Source of the DNA: Bacteroidia bacterium
GTDB lineage: Bacteria > Bacteroidota > Bacteroidia > Bacteroidales > CAJPTX01
Length of the DNA stretch: 64,000 bases
Reading direction: 5' to 3'
Assembly: GCA_002749065.1 (NCBI GenBank)
Contig: PDTX01000003.1
Coordinates: forward strand, 62,001 to 126,000
Position 1 is the stretch's first letter. Each line of letters begins with the position of its first letter. The notes under the pieces were generated by a model, which made no database searches, was not told the DNA's origin, and saw only the letters and a list, made by a program, of their open reading frames with translations. Of the stretch, positions 7,618 to 14,064 are shown one piece after another. Position numbers and translations under genes: made by a program.

Positions 7618-7661
7618 TTTACGAGCTGCATCTAGTAAATTTACGAGCCGTATCTAGTAAA
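7618..7661. repeat. Two adjacent 22-bp direct repeats, each an imperfect dyad (TTTACGAG-N6-CTAGTAAA)
   Basis: TTTACGAGCTGCATCTAGTAAA (7618-7639) and TTTACGAGCCGTATCTAGTAAA (7640-7661), 20/22 identical, directly upstream of the ATPase promoter. Confidence 0.9.
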
Positions 7662-7677
7662 ATCTGCACGAAAGGGC

Positions 7678-7685
7678 TACCTTCG
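7678..7685 (+). promoter_or_regulatory. Candidate -7 box TACCTTCG for the AAA/DUF4143 gene
   Basis: TAnnTTYG-like element 16 bp after the tandem dyads and 27 bp before ATG 7713. Confidence 0.5.
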
Positions 7686-7712: not shown

Positions 7713-8897
7713 ATGGAGTATAGCAGACCGCAGCTTCGGGAGCTGAAGGAGCGTATTCTGGCCCCGCGGCGGCAGCTGCAGATGCTGGTGGGGCCTCGGC
7801 AGGTGGGGAAGACGACCATGGTGGGCCAGCTGCTCAGGGGGCTGTCGATGCCAGTTGTGTCCGTCTCGGCCGATGGCGTGCTGACCGACGGGCGGGCGTG
7901 GATATCGCAGGTGTGGAGCAATGTGCGGCGTTTGCTGGCCGAGGGGGCGGGGGAGGCGCTGCTGGTGATAGACGAGGTGCAGAAGGTGGACCAGTGGAGC
8001 TCGGTGGTCAAGGCGGAGTGGGATGCCGATACGCGCGATGGCCTCGGCCTGAAGGTTCTGCTCCTGGGCTCGTCGACCCTGCTGATTGATAGGGGCTTGA
8101 GCGAATCCCTCATGGGTCGTTTCCGCCTCATGAGGCTGGGCCACTGGTCGTACAGGGAGATGGCCGATGCCTTCGGCTGGTCGCTGGAGCAGTACGTCTA
8201 CTTCGGCGGCTATCCGGGTTCGGCGGGCTTCATCGACCGTGAGGACGATTGGTACGACTACGTTCTGCACTCGCTCGTCGAGCCGACAATCTCGCTCGAT
8301 GTCCTCATGATGTCCCAGGTCAACAAGCCCATGCTGCTCCGCCGCGCCTTCGAGCTGGGCTGCGCCTACTCCGGGCAGCTGCTCTCCTACACCAAGATGC
8401 TCGGGCAGCTTCAGGATAAGGGCAACACGACCACCCTCTCGCACTACCTCAAGCTGCTGGACGAGGCGGGCCTGCTGGGGGCGCTGGAGAAGTACGCGGG
8501 GGAAGAGCTGCGACGGCGGGCCTCCATCCCGAAGTTTCAGGTATACAACAGCGCGCTGCTCGCGGCGCAGGGGCATGGGTCGTTCCAGTCGGCGCGGCTG
8601 GATGGTAGGGAGTGGGGGCGGCGCGTCGAGTCGGCCGTTGGTGCGCACCTGCTCAACCAGTGCATGGGGGGCGCGCTGCGGCTCTACTACTGGCGGGATG
8701 GGGGGCAGGAGGTGGACTTCGTGCTGGAGCACCGTGGGCGGGTGGTGGCCCTCGAGGTGAAGTCGAACGCCGCCGGGATGAAGCGTGGGATGGAGGCTTT
8801 TGTGCGGCGATTTAGCCCCCACCGAACGTACCTTGTGGGTGAGGCTGGCTTGCCGCTGGGGGATTTCCTCAGCATGGATGCGCGGGGGCTATTCTAG
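7713..8897 (+). CDS. AAA family ATPase, DUF4143 domain-containing
   Basis: Walker A VGPRQVGKTTMV, Walker B ALLVIDEVQK, C-terminal RDGGQEVDFVLEHRGRVVALEVKSN (DUF4143 PD-(D/E)XK-like tail). Confidence 0.9.
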   Translation: MEYSRPQLRELKERILAPRRQLQMLVGPRQVGKTTMVGQLLRGLSMPVVSVSADGVLTDGRAWISQVWSNVRRLLAEGAGEALLVIDEVQKVDQWSSVVKAEWDADTRDGLGLKVLLLGSSTLLIDRGLSESLMGRFRLMRLGHWSYREMADAFGWSLEQYVYFGGYPGSAGFIDREDDWYDYVLHSLVEPTISLDVLMMSQVNKPMLLRRAFELGCAYSGQLLSYTKMLGQLQDKGNTTTLSHYLKLLDEAGLLGALEKYAGEELRRRASIPKFQVYNSALLAAQGHGSFQSARLDGREWGRRVESAVGAHLLNQCMGGALRLYYWRDGGQEVDFVLEHRGRVVALEVKSNAAGMKRGMEAFVRRFSPHRTYLVGEAGLPLGDFLSMDARGLF

Positions 8898-8905
8898 GCC
8901 TCGGG

Positions 8906-11900
8906 TCAGCCTATCTCCGCCATCAGCCGTATCGTTTCGCCCAGCGCGTGCACGATGCGCGCGTAGTGCTCGATGTCGTCGAAGGACAGGCATCGGGGTG
9001 GCTCGCCCTTCTTTGCCTTGCGGTCCTTGAGCCACTTCTGCGCGGGCTGGTAGCCGCCGATGTAGAGCTCCCAGACCGCCTTCGGCACGCCCTCGAAGTG
9101 CTGGGTGTCGTTGATGTAGACCCGGCCGTCGGCCCAGCGTATTGCTTCCACCGCGCAGTCGCCCTCCACGGGGAAAGTGCATGCCAGTGGCCACGACTGG
9201 GCGTTCTCCATGAGGTGCAGCGCGCGTAGCTGCCCGCCGAGGGTTACCAGCCGCAGGTACTCTTTCCTATCGGTGGGGTAGGGGATGCGCGGGAAGTCTA
9301 TCTTGAGGAATTCCTTGTACCGCTCGCGGTAAGTGAGTGAGTGGAGCGTGGCGTAGATGTAGTCAAAGAGCTGGAGGGGCTCGACCATTTCGTCGAGGGC
9401 CTGTTCGATTTTGGATAGCTCGGCGGGATTGAGGTTGGGGACGAGGCGGTGGGGGGAGGGGGTTGCTTCTGACATGCTGAGCTCCAGCGCGGAGGTGGAT
9501 TCGAGGTGGTAGAGGGGGAAGGCGTAGTCACCGCCCTGCGTGCCCGGGCTAGACCAGCTTCTGAAGTCGATGATATTCCTCGACACGAAGCAGGGTGCGG
9601 ATGCATCTTTTGGATGACCGAGCTTGCATATCAGGGCCAAATTCTGAGGATGTGACAGGTGAAAAAAATTTTCGAATCGTGGCCTGGCCACGATTCCGTT
9701 TGTAGTACCTGTGTAGTAGAGGAATTTCGTGTCGAAGGGGCGGTAGCCTATTGGTCGGATGAGCTCGGGCTTTAGGGTCTGGCCTACATCTGCCTTTGCC
9801 CGGGCGATGGACCAGTCGCGGGTGTCCGTCAGGCCATACTTGGTCCGCAGTTCCTCCTCTGGTAGGGCGATGAGGTCCCTGATGCGCCTCTCTACCTGCT
9901 TGGGACTATCGCAGATGAGGAAGGCATCCTTCGTGGTGACTATGCCGACTGAGCTTTGTGGTATTAGCTCGTTGATGGCGAAGCTCGCCTGGTATTCCTC
10001 CTCCAGCTCGAAATCCTTGGGCACGAAGAAGTACTGCGGGGCCCTGGGCTGCAGCTCCTGCCATGGCACGCTGCCCAGGCTACCCGCATCTAGGTAAGCA
10101 AACTTATCCTCCCTCGTGCCGAGTAGCTCGTGGTGGAATACGCAGCCCATTCCTTTCCCTTTTGTTCCAGAGCTCACGAAGATGCCGATGCTCACCCCCT
10201 GCATGATGTCGAAGACGTTCTCATCCTTGCCACCGTCGCGGGTGGTCTCCCTCTTGCGGGCGTTGCCGTGGAGGTCGAGGAGGTAGATCGTGTCGAAGGT
10301 CCGGAGCAGCTGCCATCGCATGCCGCGGAAGGTGGGGTTGTCGAGGTAGCCGTGGGGGGTGATGAAGGCCAGCACGCCGCCCTCGGGGTTGCGCTCAATG
10401 TAGTGCTGGCCCATGCGGATGAACTTCACGTAGTCGTCATTGAGCCACTTGGGGTTGCGCTCGTCGAGCTTCCGCAGGCCGCCCGGCTCGGTCTTGTAGC
10501 TCTGCATTAGGTCCATTATCCATTGGCTCTTGTTGGTGCTCGCGCCGTTGTAGGGCGGGTTGCCGAGCATGACCATGACGGGAGCGATGCGCTTGATGGC
10601 ATTGGCGGCGTTGGCCTCGCGCGAGAGCCAGGAGGCGAAGAGGTTGCGCGTGTCTGGATGCTCGTTCTCCAACGCATCGGTGAGGTAGATGCGGATGCGG
10701 GGTGTCTGGTCAGGGGGCGGGGTGTAGCCCGTGTTGCGGAGCTGGCTCTCGAGATTGAGGTGCGCAATGGCATAGGGGGCCATGAGCAGCTCGAAGCCGT
10801 AGAGGCGGGGGAGGAGGTGTTGTTCTACGTAGCCCTGCCATGCGCCCTTGTTGCTCTTGAACTTGGTGTGAATCTGGCGCACGACTTCGGCCAGGAAGGT
10901 GCCCGTGCCGGTGGCTGGGTCAAGTATTTGCACGCGGTGGTGGGGGGCGGTGGCCGTGGAGCTGTCAGCCAGGCCCTTGGCCAGCCCGAAGTCACGGATG
11001 AGGATTTCATCCACGGCCCGCACGATGAAGCTGACTACAGATTGAGGGGTATACCATACGCCCTTCGTCTTGCGTAGGTCAGGGTCGTATGCAGTCAGGA
11101 AGTCCTCGTAGAAGTGGATGATGGGGTCGTGGGTCTCGTCGTGCATGACGGCCTGGGTATCCACATAGTTGAAGGTGGTGGCTAGGTCGTCGACTATCCA
11201 CGCATAGCGGGGGTCGAGGTCGAAGGTGGCAATGGTCTGGAATACCTGTCGAAGGAAGGGATTGGACTGGGGGATTAGGGTGGCGGCGTTTTGCCGGGTG
11301 AATTGGTCCCCCGTGCTGTCGTTAATCCGTGCGGCGAAGAGGCCGTAGGTAATGGTCTGGGCGTAGAGGTCGGCGAAGGCGTTCGGGCTGAGGTCGTGGA
11401 TGAGCACGTGGCGGAAGGCCTTGAACTGGTCCACGATGGGAACATTGGTTTCCTCACTCAATGCATCCAGCGGCGACTCCTCCGCCTCTTCATCGAGTTC
11501 GTAGCCGGCGAGAATGCGGTCGATGGTCTGGGCTAGCAACCGCGCCTTCCCGGCCATGATCTGGGCCAGCTGCTGTGCGGAGGCGATGCCCTGGGGCTGG
11601 GCGATGCGGATGTGGCCCACCACCAGCTCCATGAACTTCCCCTCGTTCTCCTTGATGTGTACGATTTTGCCCCCTTTGAGCTCCCCGATGCGCACGCTGT
11701 CGACGAATTCGCCCCCCTGGTAGACGTGGAAGTCGAGGTAGTCGGTGAATATCAGGTTCTCGAGCGCCTCTTTGTACCTATCGAATTGCTCCCGGTTGGC
11801 CCTCCGGCCATCGAGGTCGGGGTCGCCGATGTCCTTGGCCTCGATGAAGGCCACGGTGAGCTTGCTGCCCCTCGCGCTGATGATGTAGTCGGGCGCGCCG

Positions 11901-12049
11901 CAGGCGATGCGCTTGGGCTCGTTGGTGGTGCTGTGGCCGGGGAGTAGGGCGGTGAGCAGGCCCTGTAGGTGAGGTCGGTAGGAGTGCTCGGTGGCCTTGC
12001 CCTGCTGGAGGGTGGCGTTGAGCTGCTGGATGTATTCCTTGATGGTCAT
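8906..12049 (-). CDS. Single-chain restriction-modification-type protein: N-terminal PD-(D/E)XK-like nuclease, N6-adenine methyltransferase, C-terminal specificity region ('type ISP'/IIG-like, no helicase visible)
   Basis: PDYIISARGSKLTVAFIEAKDIG nuclease-like motif; DPATGTGTFLAEVV SAM motif; LGNPPYNG catalytic NPPY; start chosen at MTIKEYIQQL (12049). Confidence 0.85.
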   Translation of the reverse strand: MTIKEYIQQLNATLQQGKATEHSYRPHLQGLLTALLPGHSTTNEPKRIACGAPDYIISARGSKLTVAFIEAKDIGDPDLDGRRANREQFDRYKEALENLIFTDYLDFHVYQGGEFVDSVRIGELKGGKIVHIKENEGKFMELVVGHIRIAQPQGIASAQQLAQIMAGKARLLAQTIDRILAGYELDEEAEESPLDALSEETNVPIVDQFKAFRHVLIHDLSPNAFADLYAQTITYGLFAARINDSTGDQFTRQNAATLIPQSNPFLRQVFQTIATFDLDPRYAWIVDDLATTFNYVDTQAVMHDETHDPIIHFYEDFLTAYDPDLRKTKGVWYTPQSVVSFIVRAVDEILIRDFGLAKGLADSSTATAPHHRVQILDPATGTGTFLAEVVRQIHTKFKSNKGAWQGYVEQHLLPRLYGFELLMAPYAIAHLNLESQLRNTGYTPPPDQTPRIRIYLTDALENEHPDTRNLFASWLSREANAANAIKRIAPVMVMLGNPPYNGASTNKSQWIMDLMQSYKTEPGGLRKLDERNPKWLNDDYVKFIRMGQHYIERNPEGGVLAFITPHGYLDNPTFRGMRWQLLRTFDTIYLLDLHGNARKRETTRDGGKDENVFDIMQGVSIGIFVSSGTKGKGMGCVFHHELLGTREDKFAYLDAGSLGSVPWQELQPRAPQYFFVPKDFELEEEYQASFAINELIPQSSVGIVTTKDAFLICDSPKQVERRIRDLIALPEEELRTKYGLTDTRDWSIARAKADVGQTLKPELIRPIGYRPFDTKFLYYTGTTNGIVARPRFENFFHLSHPQNLALICKLGHPKDASAPCFVSRNIIDFRSWSSPGTQGGDYAFPLYHLESTSALELSMSEATPSPHRLVPNLNPAELSKIEQALDEMVEPLQLFDYIYATLHSLTYRERYKEFLKIDFPRIPYPTDRKEYLRLVTLGGQLRALHLMENAQSWPLACTFPVEGDCAVEAIRWADGRVYINDTQHFEGVPKAVWELYIGGYQPAQKWLKDRKAKKGEPPRCLSFDDIEHYARIVHALGETIRLMAEIG
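9674..9696. repeat. 23-bp perfect palindrome (11-1-11) inside the methyltransferase CDS
   Basis: GAATCGTGGCC T GGCCACGATTC. Confidence 0.9.
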
Positions 12050-12080
12050 GCGGCGCTTGCTTTTCGGGCGTAAAGGTAGG

Positions 12081-12117
12081 GAAAAAGGGGCTACGTGGAA
12101 TGCCCCACATAGCCCCT
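12081..12117 (-). terminator. Intrinsic terminator of the pseudouridine synthase gene
   Basis: Minus strand: AGGGGCTATGTGG ggcatt CCACGTAGCCCCT followed by TTTTTC; 13-bp stem with one G-T-type mismatch. Confidence 0.8.
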
Positions 12118-12141
12118 CCAATTCTGGTCTATGGCCGATGC

Positions 12142-14064
12142 CTAGTGGTACCGGCCCATCTTCAGCATGGCGATCTCATCCTCCTCCAGGAAGCGCCACT
12201 CCCCGCGGGGGAGGTTCTTCTTGGTCAGCCCGGCGTAGTACACCCGGTCGAGCTTCACCACCTTGTAGTCCAGCGCCTCGAAGAGCCGACGGACCACCCG
12301 GTTCTGCCCGGAGTGCAGCTCCACGCCCACCACCGACTTGTCCTCGGGTCGGGTGTAGTCGATGCTATCCACCCTCACCACGCCCACCTCGGTCTCGATG
12401 CCCTCCAGGAGCCGCGCCATGTCGTCCTGGGTCACGTTCCTGTCCAGCCCCACCTCGTAGATCTTGCTCTTGGCGTAGGAGGGGTGGGTGAGCTGCTCGG
12501 TGAGCTCCCCGTCGTTGGTCATGAGCAGCAGGCCGGTGGTGTTGCGGTCTAGCCGACCGACGGGGTACACCCGCTCGGAGCATGCCCCCTCGATGATGTC
12601 GAGCACGGTGCGCCCGGCGTTCGGATCCTCCAGGGTGCAGAAGCAGTCCTTGGGCTTGTTCATCAGGATGTACACCTTGCGCTCCCGCTTCAGCACCTCC
12701 CCCTTGAAGGTGATTTCCTGCTCGGCCGGGGTGACCTTCGTGCCGAGGGTGGTGACCACCTGCCCGTCGACCATCACCTCGCCCTGCTCTATGAGTAGGT
12801 CGGCGTCCCGCCGCGCGCATACCCCGCAGTGGGCTATGTAGCGGTTGAGGCGCATGGGCTTCGTGGGGTCAAATACGGCCACGGGTTGCTCCTGCTTCTT
12901 CCTGCGGGGCCTGCGGTCATCCCGACGGTCGAAGCGGTCATCGGAGCGTTCGAAGCGCCCCGCCCCGCGGCGTGAAAAGCGGTTGTCCCTCCTGTCGTCC
13001 CTTCCGTACCTGCTCTCCCTTCTATCGTCCCTTCCGTACCTACTTTCCCTCCTATCATCCCTACTTTCCCTCCTATCATCCCTTCCGAACCGACTTTCCC
13101 TTCTGTCGTCCCTTCCATACCTGCTTTCCCTTCTATCGTCCCTTCCGTACCGGCTTTCCCTTCTATCGTCCCTTCCGTACCGGCTTTCCCTTCTGTCGTC
13201 CCTTCCGAACCGGCTCTCCCTTCTGTCGTCCCTTCCGTATCGGCTCTCCCTCCTATCGTCCCTTCCATACCTGCTCTCCCTTCTATCGTCCCTTCCGTAT
13301 CGGCTCTCCCTCCTATCGTCCCTTCCATACCTGCTCTCCCTCCTGTCGTCGCTTCCGTATCGGCTCTCCCTCCTGTCGTCCCTTCCGTACCTGCTCTCCC
13401 TCCTGTCATCGCTTCCGAACCTGCTTTCCCTTCTGTCGTCCCTTCCATACCTGCTCTCCCTTCTATCGTCGCTTCCGAACCTGCTCTCCCTCCTGTCGTC
13501 CCTTCCGAACCTGCTCTCCCTTCTATCATCGCTTCCATACCTGCTTTCCCTTCTGTCATCGCTTCCGTACCTGCTCTCCCTCCTGTCATCGCTTCCGAAC
13601 CGGCTCTCCCTTCTATCGTCCCTTCCGAACCGGCTTTCCCTCCTGTCGTCCCTTCCATACCGACTTTCCCTTCTATCGTCCCTTTCGAACCGGCTCTCCC
13701 TCCTGTCGTCCCGCCTATCATCCCGACGCTCAGGCCGCCGTCCCCCCATCATCCGCTCCTCCTCGCTATCGTAGGGTTGCTGCGGCTCGGGTTCGGGCGT
13801 CGCGGGCTGCACGTAGTTGAACTCCCGTTTAGCTGTCCGTGGGCGGTAGCTGCCCGACTCCTCACGGCGGGCAGGGCGCTCCGCGTACTCGCGTCGCTCC
13901 TCCCTTTCGTCCTGCGCCCTCTCCTCTCGGGGGGCCATCGTAGCGCGCCGGGTGCGCGGCATGTACTGCCGGGCTGGCTCCTCGCTACGGCCACGTCCGC
14001 TTCGGCCATCCTCCCGACGGTCACCGCGGCTCCTTCTGCTCATTCTGTCTTCCATGTAGTCCAA
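12142..14064 (-). CDS. RsuA/RluB-family rRNA pseudouridine synthase with very long Arg-rich repetitive N-terminal extension
   Basis: S4-like MRLNRYIAHCGVCARRDADLLIEQGEV, catalytic VGRLDRNTTGLLLMTNDGELTEQLTHPSYAKSKIYEV; N-terminus with ~25 DDRRESR(Y/F)G(R/S) units. Confidence 0.9.
   Translation of the reverse strand: MDYMEDRMSRRSRGDRREDGRSGRGRSEEPARQYMPRTRRATMAPREERAQDEREERREYAERPARREESGSYRPRTAKREFNYVQPATPEPEPQQPYDSEEERMMGGRRPERRDDRRDDRRESRFERDDRRESRYGRDDRRESRFGRDDRRESRFGSDDRRESRYGSDDRRESRYGSDDRRESRFGRDDRRESRFGSDDRRESRYGRDDRRESRFGSDDRRESRYGRDDRRESRYGSDDRRESRYGRDDRRESRYGRDDRRESRYGRDDRRESRYGRDDRRESRFGRDDRRESRYGRDDRRESRYGRDDRRESRYGRDDRRESRFGRDDRRESRDDRRESRYGRDDRRESRYGRDDRRDNRFSRRGAGRFERSDDRFDRRDDRRPRRKKQEQPVAVFDPTKPMRLNRYIAHCGVCARRDADLLIEQGEVMVDGQVVTTLGTKVTPAEQEITFKGEVLKRERKVYILMNKPKDCFCTLEDPNAGRTVLDIIEGACSERVYPVGRLDRNTTGLLLMTNDGELTEQLTHPSYAKSKIYEVGLDRNVTQDDMARLLEGIETEVGVVRVDSIDYTRPEDKSVVGVELHSGQNRVVRRLFEALDYKVVKLDRVYYAGLTKKNLPRGEWRFLEEDEIAMLKMGRYH
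12980..13715 (-). repeat. 30-bp in-frame minisatellite, ~25 units, encoding DDRRESR(Y/F)G(R/S)
   Basis: Period-30 repetition visible as near-identical half-lines from 12980 to 13715; one shortened unit (DDRRESR only) near 13020-13080. Confidence 0.95.

Follow-up and report, generated by a model that had tools for sequence, protein, structure and literature searches.

In toxin-antitoxin operators, plasmid Rep iterons and RepA autorepression, a protein reads phased repeats located before its own gene, and the specificity of autoregulatory operators is private to each system. Archaeal Orc1/Cdc6 proteins bind repeated boxes beside their own gene. Dedicated repressors are often found in control of defense genes, as illustrated by BrxR (PMC9122589) and RptR (PMC12255303). 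PDC-S01, a PADLOC defense candidate, is described in PMC12988326 as the fourth commonest defense system in prokaryotes and as unvalidated, with an architecture in which an ATPase is fused to a PD-(D/E)XK domain. PMC13356809 likewise reports it as common and unvalidated. The literature that we surveyed on PDC-S01, AAA_14/DUF4143 and COG1373, which included few subscription journals and little of bioRxiv, describes no cis-element of the kind found here.

We examined a 64-kb window, meaning the whole stretch of DNA under analysis, in which tandem dyads precede a PDC-S01 gene. The features are listed below; all lie on the plus strand.

7618..7639, plus: repeat unit 1, an imperfect dyad TTTACGAG-CTGCAT-CTAGTAAA (sequence TTTACGAGCTGCATCTAGTAAA)
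7640..7661, plus: repeat unit 2, an imperfect dyad TTTACGAG-CCGTAT-CTAGTAAA (sequence TTTACGAGCCGTATCTAGTAAA)
7630..7639, plus: forward half-site 1, ATCTAGTAAA (family consensus ATTGAGTAAA), from a position weight matrix (PWM) and phasing
7652..7661, plus: forward half-site 2, ATCTAGTAAA, exactly 22 bp past half-site 1, from PWM and phasing
7678..7685, plus: probable Bacteroidota -7 promoter box TACCTTCG, which is TAACTTTG in a same-genus relative
7713..8897, plus: 394-aa AAA_14/DUF4143 ATPase, PADLOC candidate PDC-S01 (Pfam, PADLOC and structure model)
7770..8147, plus: AAA+ core, aa 20-145, with intact Walker A (GPRQVGKTT) and Walker B (LLVIDE) motifs (sequence and model)
8328..8543, plus: winged-helix region, aa 206-277, the likely array reader (AlphaFold2 model and covariation; putative DNA binding)
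aa 239-251 of the winged-helix region, plus: probable recognition helix (AlphaFold2 model)
8604..8840, plus: C-terminal PD-(D/E)XK-type fold, aa 298-376 (motif E306 / EVD 333-335 / EVK 348-350, and model)

The first-pass annotation had described two tandem 22-bp units, each an imperfect inverted repeat, ending 16 bp before a -7 box and about 50 bp before the ATG. The sequence and coordinates bear this out. The units are directly adjacent and identical at 20/22 positions, forming a 44-bp block, and both contain the dyad TTTACGAG...CTAGTAAA. The array ends 16 bases (7662-7677) short of the -7 box and 51 bp ahead of the ATG at 7713. The array probably covers the -33 side of this promoter. Adjacent 22-mer pairs with at least 20/22 matches occurred in the window at 7618-7661 alone and in none of 100 block shuffles of the window, which rules out a chance origin of the repeat. 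Copy counts for the source genome rest on pattern searches; with up to 3 mismatches, these recovered the two window copies and no others in the 1.32 Mb assembly (74% complete). One same-genus genome contains the locus, with an equivalent element (TTTTACGAGCTACACCTCGTAGTTTTACGAGATGTAGCTCGTAAAAC) placed 15 bp before a -7 box that is better than that of the window. In this relative, the ATPase gene shares its intergenic region with a divergent gene (L029:313 onwards, start MFDIDGRRLPTGLQSFKKIREEGSIYVDK), by appearance a member of an AAA-ATPase-like/PDDEXK family.

We compared the upstream regions of ATPase orthologs. Ten genomes of the same order contained close relatives, yielding nine usable orthologs (47-55% identity), and a genome scan contributed 80 further ATPase loci. 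The resulting set comprised 76 usable upstream regions (at least 40% identity) from many phyla. Direct repeats with at least 9/11 matches at exactly 22 bp were present in 60/76 of these regions versus 8/368 control (flanking) genes (Fisher p=4e-50). Other spacings gave a mean of 1.7 among the 76 regions, and 44 bp gave 16. Inspection of the 16 regions that failed the 22-bp test showed the same dyad in most, in weaker or single form; a divergent ortholog locus (L096) carries a different palindrome in its place. Period-specific tests were needed, as a generic inverted/direct-repeat score separated orthologs from controls only moderately. The PWM ATTGAGTAAA (11.5 bits) placed forward half-sites at 0, +/-22 and 44 and inverted half-sites mainly at +10/-12, with few strays. 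With this spacing, neighboring half-sites are offset by about 11 bp and face the same side of the helix. The array is rarely more than about 90 bp from the ATPase start codon. The element also occurs at four annotated loci outside the ortholog set, on plasmids of Bacteroides finegoldii, Thermus oshimai and Collinsella aerofaciens and on a faecal phage scaffold. Overall, it precedes the ATPase gene in Bacteroidota, Verrucomicrobiota, Acidobacteriota, Proteobacteria, Thermus and Collinsella. Comparable tandem dyads upstream of orthologs, on which the first-pass annotation had staked its proposal, are thus present with the same 22-bp period in many phyla.

The element is also specific to this gene. 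A strict two-dyad pattern matched 12 times in 247 Bacteroidales genomes, 9/12 directly upstream of an ATPase ortholog, and the reversed pattern gave 0 matches in the same genomes. The other 3/12 matches are orphans with no ATPase gene nearby. In genomes with direct-repeat arrays, the pattern likewise falls mainly at the ATPase gene. These counts rule out scatter of the repeat at unrelated loci, both in the source genome and in Bacteroidales genomes, where matches are nearly confined to the ATPase gene. Together with the 22-bp period in orthologs, this confinement supports the earlier reading of the block as a cooperative operator, or as a nucleoprotein site for the ATPase or an unknown factor, and it is established by computation that the element exists and is coupled to the ATPase gene. 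Solo arrays without a PDC-S01 gene nearby were seen at L186 (motif at 625), L187 (8590), L188 (8494) and L191; these may be left over from loci that lost the gene, or may have a function in their own right. At two loci, copies of the same array flank the ATPase gene on its 5' and 3' sides as direct repeats: L070 (5882-5948, 7290-7334 and one solo copy at 9463-9485) and L088 (5891-5957 and 7230-7296). A second array 3' of the gene is not explained by a simple operator.

The window protein matches PADLOC profile PDLC04791 over its full length (residues 1-392 of 394, E=3.6e-168, 557 bits), a likeness that makes the gene a candidate, unvalidated phage-defense gene of the PDC-S01 type. It is the one DUF4143 gene in the 1.32 Mb, 74% complete source genome. 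Pfam (AAA_14, DUF4143), the structure model and an E/D/ExK motif all place the ATPase-PD-(D/E)XK fusion in this protein, and the nuclease assignment follows PMC12988326. In the AlphaFold2 model (pLDDT 90.3), the AAA+ core is accompanied by a winged helix and, at the C-terminus, by a domain of the PD-(D/E)XK type. A sequence search returned no solved homologs; the closest PDB folds are archaeal Orc1/Cdc6 initiators with DNA, at a weak TM of about 0.35. According to the model and fold matches, the window ATPase has the AAA+ plus winged-helix combination in common with Orc1/Cdc6. It differs from these initiators and their origin boxes in having an extra nuclease domain and sites on a promoter.

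We reasoned from the half-sites themselves about which protein reads the array. Lineages use GAGTAAA, GCGTAAA, GAACATTT, GAGAATTT, GAAGATTT or CTAATAAA, the window uses CTAGTAAA, and each sub-lineage has its own half-site. Copies agree at 7.84/9 positions within a locus versus 6.44 between loci, a difference beyond all 2000 permutations. One genome encodes two ATPase paralogs with two different homogeneous arrays, TTGAACATTT and TTGAGAATTT x7. Across phyla, the half-sites upstream of this gene are conserved and drift in concert, and they are helically phased, with a 22-bp period and steps of about 11 bp. We correlated half-site distance with divergence of each protein region, partialling out the other regions. 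The winged-helix region gave a modest partial r of 0.20 (p 0.014) with phylogeny corrected only in part, and the helices that adjoin it on its N-terminal side gave an equal signal (0.19, p 0.014). The AAA core (-0.09) and the nuclease (-0.05) did not track the half-sites. Of the top 30 covarying columns, 11 lie in the winged helix (p 0.015). Association and covariation support, short of proof, a model in which the ATPase itself reads the array.

In the reading that we consider probable, the 44-bp block serves the ATPase promoter as a private operator array for self-regulation and is bound by the winged helix of the ATPase; binding and repression are the predicted parts of this model. As in autoregulatory operators, the conserved site lies at the gene's own promoter, and the array is on or next to the core promoter. 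Bacteroidota show three layouts: the -7 box may immediately precede the array, fall within it, or follow it. The third layout is that of the window, the same-genus relative and GAGAATTT-type loci. Relative to TAnnTTTG, the array lies upstream, over, or just downstream. An array that can sit on either side of the -7 box and still occupy the core promoter would fit steric repression best, rather than activation. The winged-helix domain would bind successive half-sites side by side, the AAA+ modules would assemble along one DNA face, and the bound array would block RNA polymerase, so that the ATPase gene represses itself. Infection might then change the nucleotide state or assembly, releasing the array, raising expression and freeing the ATPase-nuclease to act. 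Because each paralog would read its own half-site, the array could also insulate paralogs from one another. Induction on infection is loosely suggested by analogy to a distant homolog: expression of TT_P0211, an AAA_14/DUF4143 member in Thermus thermophilus, was raised 6.6-fold in a plasmid-carrying, Argonaute-positive strain (PMC4406477), making one family member transcriptionally responsive. In comparison with toxin-antitoxin, Rep and RepA operators, the putative reader here is a single-gene AAA+ nuclease, with no antitoxin or replication role evident.

Alternatively, the array could be the operator of a host regulator distinct from the ATPase, under whose control the defense gene happens to fall. 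BrxR and RptR also have operators upstream of defense genes, and the three orphan sites without an ATPase gene also speak for this explanation. These two proteins are stand-alone repressors, however, whereas the array here appears tied to the effector gene itself. A separate regulator would have to keep the same element before this gene from Bacteroidota and Verrucomicrobiota to Acidobacteriota, Proteobacteria, Thermus and Collinsella, while the element is nearly absent elsewhere in Bacteroidales. It also sits poorly with the different arrays of two paralogs in one genome and with half-site drift that tracks the ATPase winged helix. We regard this explanation as unlikely.

We hold an equally low expectation that the array serves as a self marker, or as a loading site on which the ATPase-nuclease assembles as a sensing or effector platform, with promoter overlap secondary. 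This proposal is likened to Orc1/Cdc6 loading on origin boxes beside its own gene. Arrays of up to 7 units, the 3' arrays at two loci, the solo arrays and the fold matches to Orc1/Cdc6 with DNA all agree with it. Yet the fold similarity is weak, and loading does not require the near-constant placement of the array close to the start codon, on or near the promoter.

A mobile-element origin, with the repeats as its ends or footprints, is highly improbable. The array-gene-array arrangement of direct repeats in L070 and L088, the solo arrays and the patchy distribution of the ATPase gene are compatible with mobility. Against this, the distance from array to ATG is constrained, and apart from L070 and L088 the window and most orthologs have no 3' copy of the array. 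Paired terminal repeats around the gene, as at transposon ends, were seen at the same two exceptions, and we rejected a transposon-end identity because most loci lack a 3' copy. Least probable of all is action at the RNA level, as a leader structure or in the control of translation. In many Bacteroidota the array would be transcribed, since it is located between the -7 box and the ATG. But it is upstream of the -7 box in the window, the same-genus relative and several further loci, which led us to reject an RNA element, and some arrays consist solely of direct repeats that could form no hairpin.

We found gene-specific upstream repeats beyond the orthologs of the window ATPase. Exact 32-bp repeats (at least 10/11 matches), differing in sequence, precede 14/58 distant DUF4143 genes versus 2/150 controls. 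A less specific repeat score gave 20/47 versus 17/150, with several of these controls themselves of AAA_14 type. DUF4143 homologs from Novosphingobium and Salipiger have 22-bp upstream repeats. Distant genes with such repeats (L126-L185, L352, L355 and L356) show periods of 32 bp in Bacteroidales or 22-23 bp on proteobacterial plasmids. Much of the DUF4143 superfamily appears to share private phased repeats, with at least two periods of about two and three helical turns.

The motif is abundant in viral DNA. The strict two-dyad pattern matched at least 120 times in IMG/VR viral contigs, versus 0 for the reversed pattern, and 80 fetched viral stretches, which are parts of contigs, contained no ATPase ortholog. 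Most of these copies (L210-L289, e.g. L222:2483-2511, L232:4498-4526 and L275) are in related phages, and several lie in unrelated contexts; a few sites inside reading frames may be chance. Other half-site types had few matches in viral contigs; it is thus the GAGTAA type that is abundant there. A search of cultured phages gave no convincing match, and a rearranged control performed similarly. In several phages the motif lies between or beside apparent terminase genes, as assigned by eye rather than by profile, within long intergenic strings of other palindromes. We rejected these palindromes as operators of other DUF4143 families, because regions upstream of distant DUF4143 genes matched the viral contigs no better than the reversed control (5 vs 3 queries) and one of the palindromes is absent from 348 Bacteroidota genomes. 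The viral copies could be decoys, sites of a phage regulator, or targets. We tentatively raise a broader possibility, that AAA_14/DUF4143 defense ATPases, as a superfamily, each read a private phased array at their own promoter (22-bp period in one branch, 32-bp in another) and that the gene-less phage copies are DNA decoys or operator mimics, by which the ATPase would be titrated or held inactive. If functional, such copies would represent phage counter-defense by DNA rather than by protein.

PDC-S01 is among the commonest reported prokaryotic defense candidates, and a gene-specific site conserved across phyla provides a direct handle on it. The array predicts the DNA ligand of the ATPase, offers a reporter for its activation, allows specificity to be tested by paralog swaps, and can serve as a genome search term.

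A Type ISP restriction-modification enzyme (N6_Mtase + Type_ISP_C; 8906-12121, minus strand) lies tail to tail with the ATPase gene, and this downstream neighbor makes the setting defense-like. It is followed by a gene for a pseudouridine-synthase-like protein (12142-14064, minus strand) whose N-terminal half contains an extended tract of DDRRESRYGR repeats. These repeats account for a 30-bp periodicity in the window.
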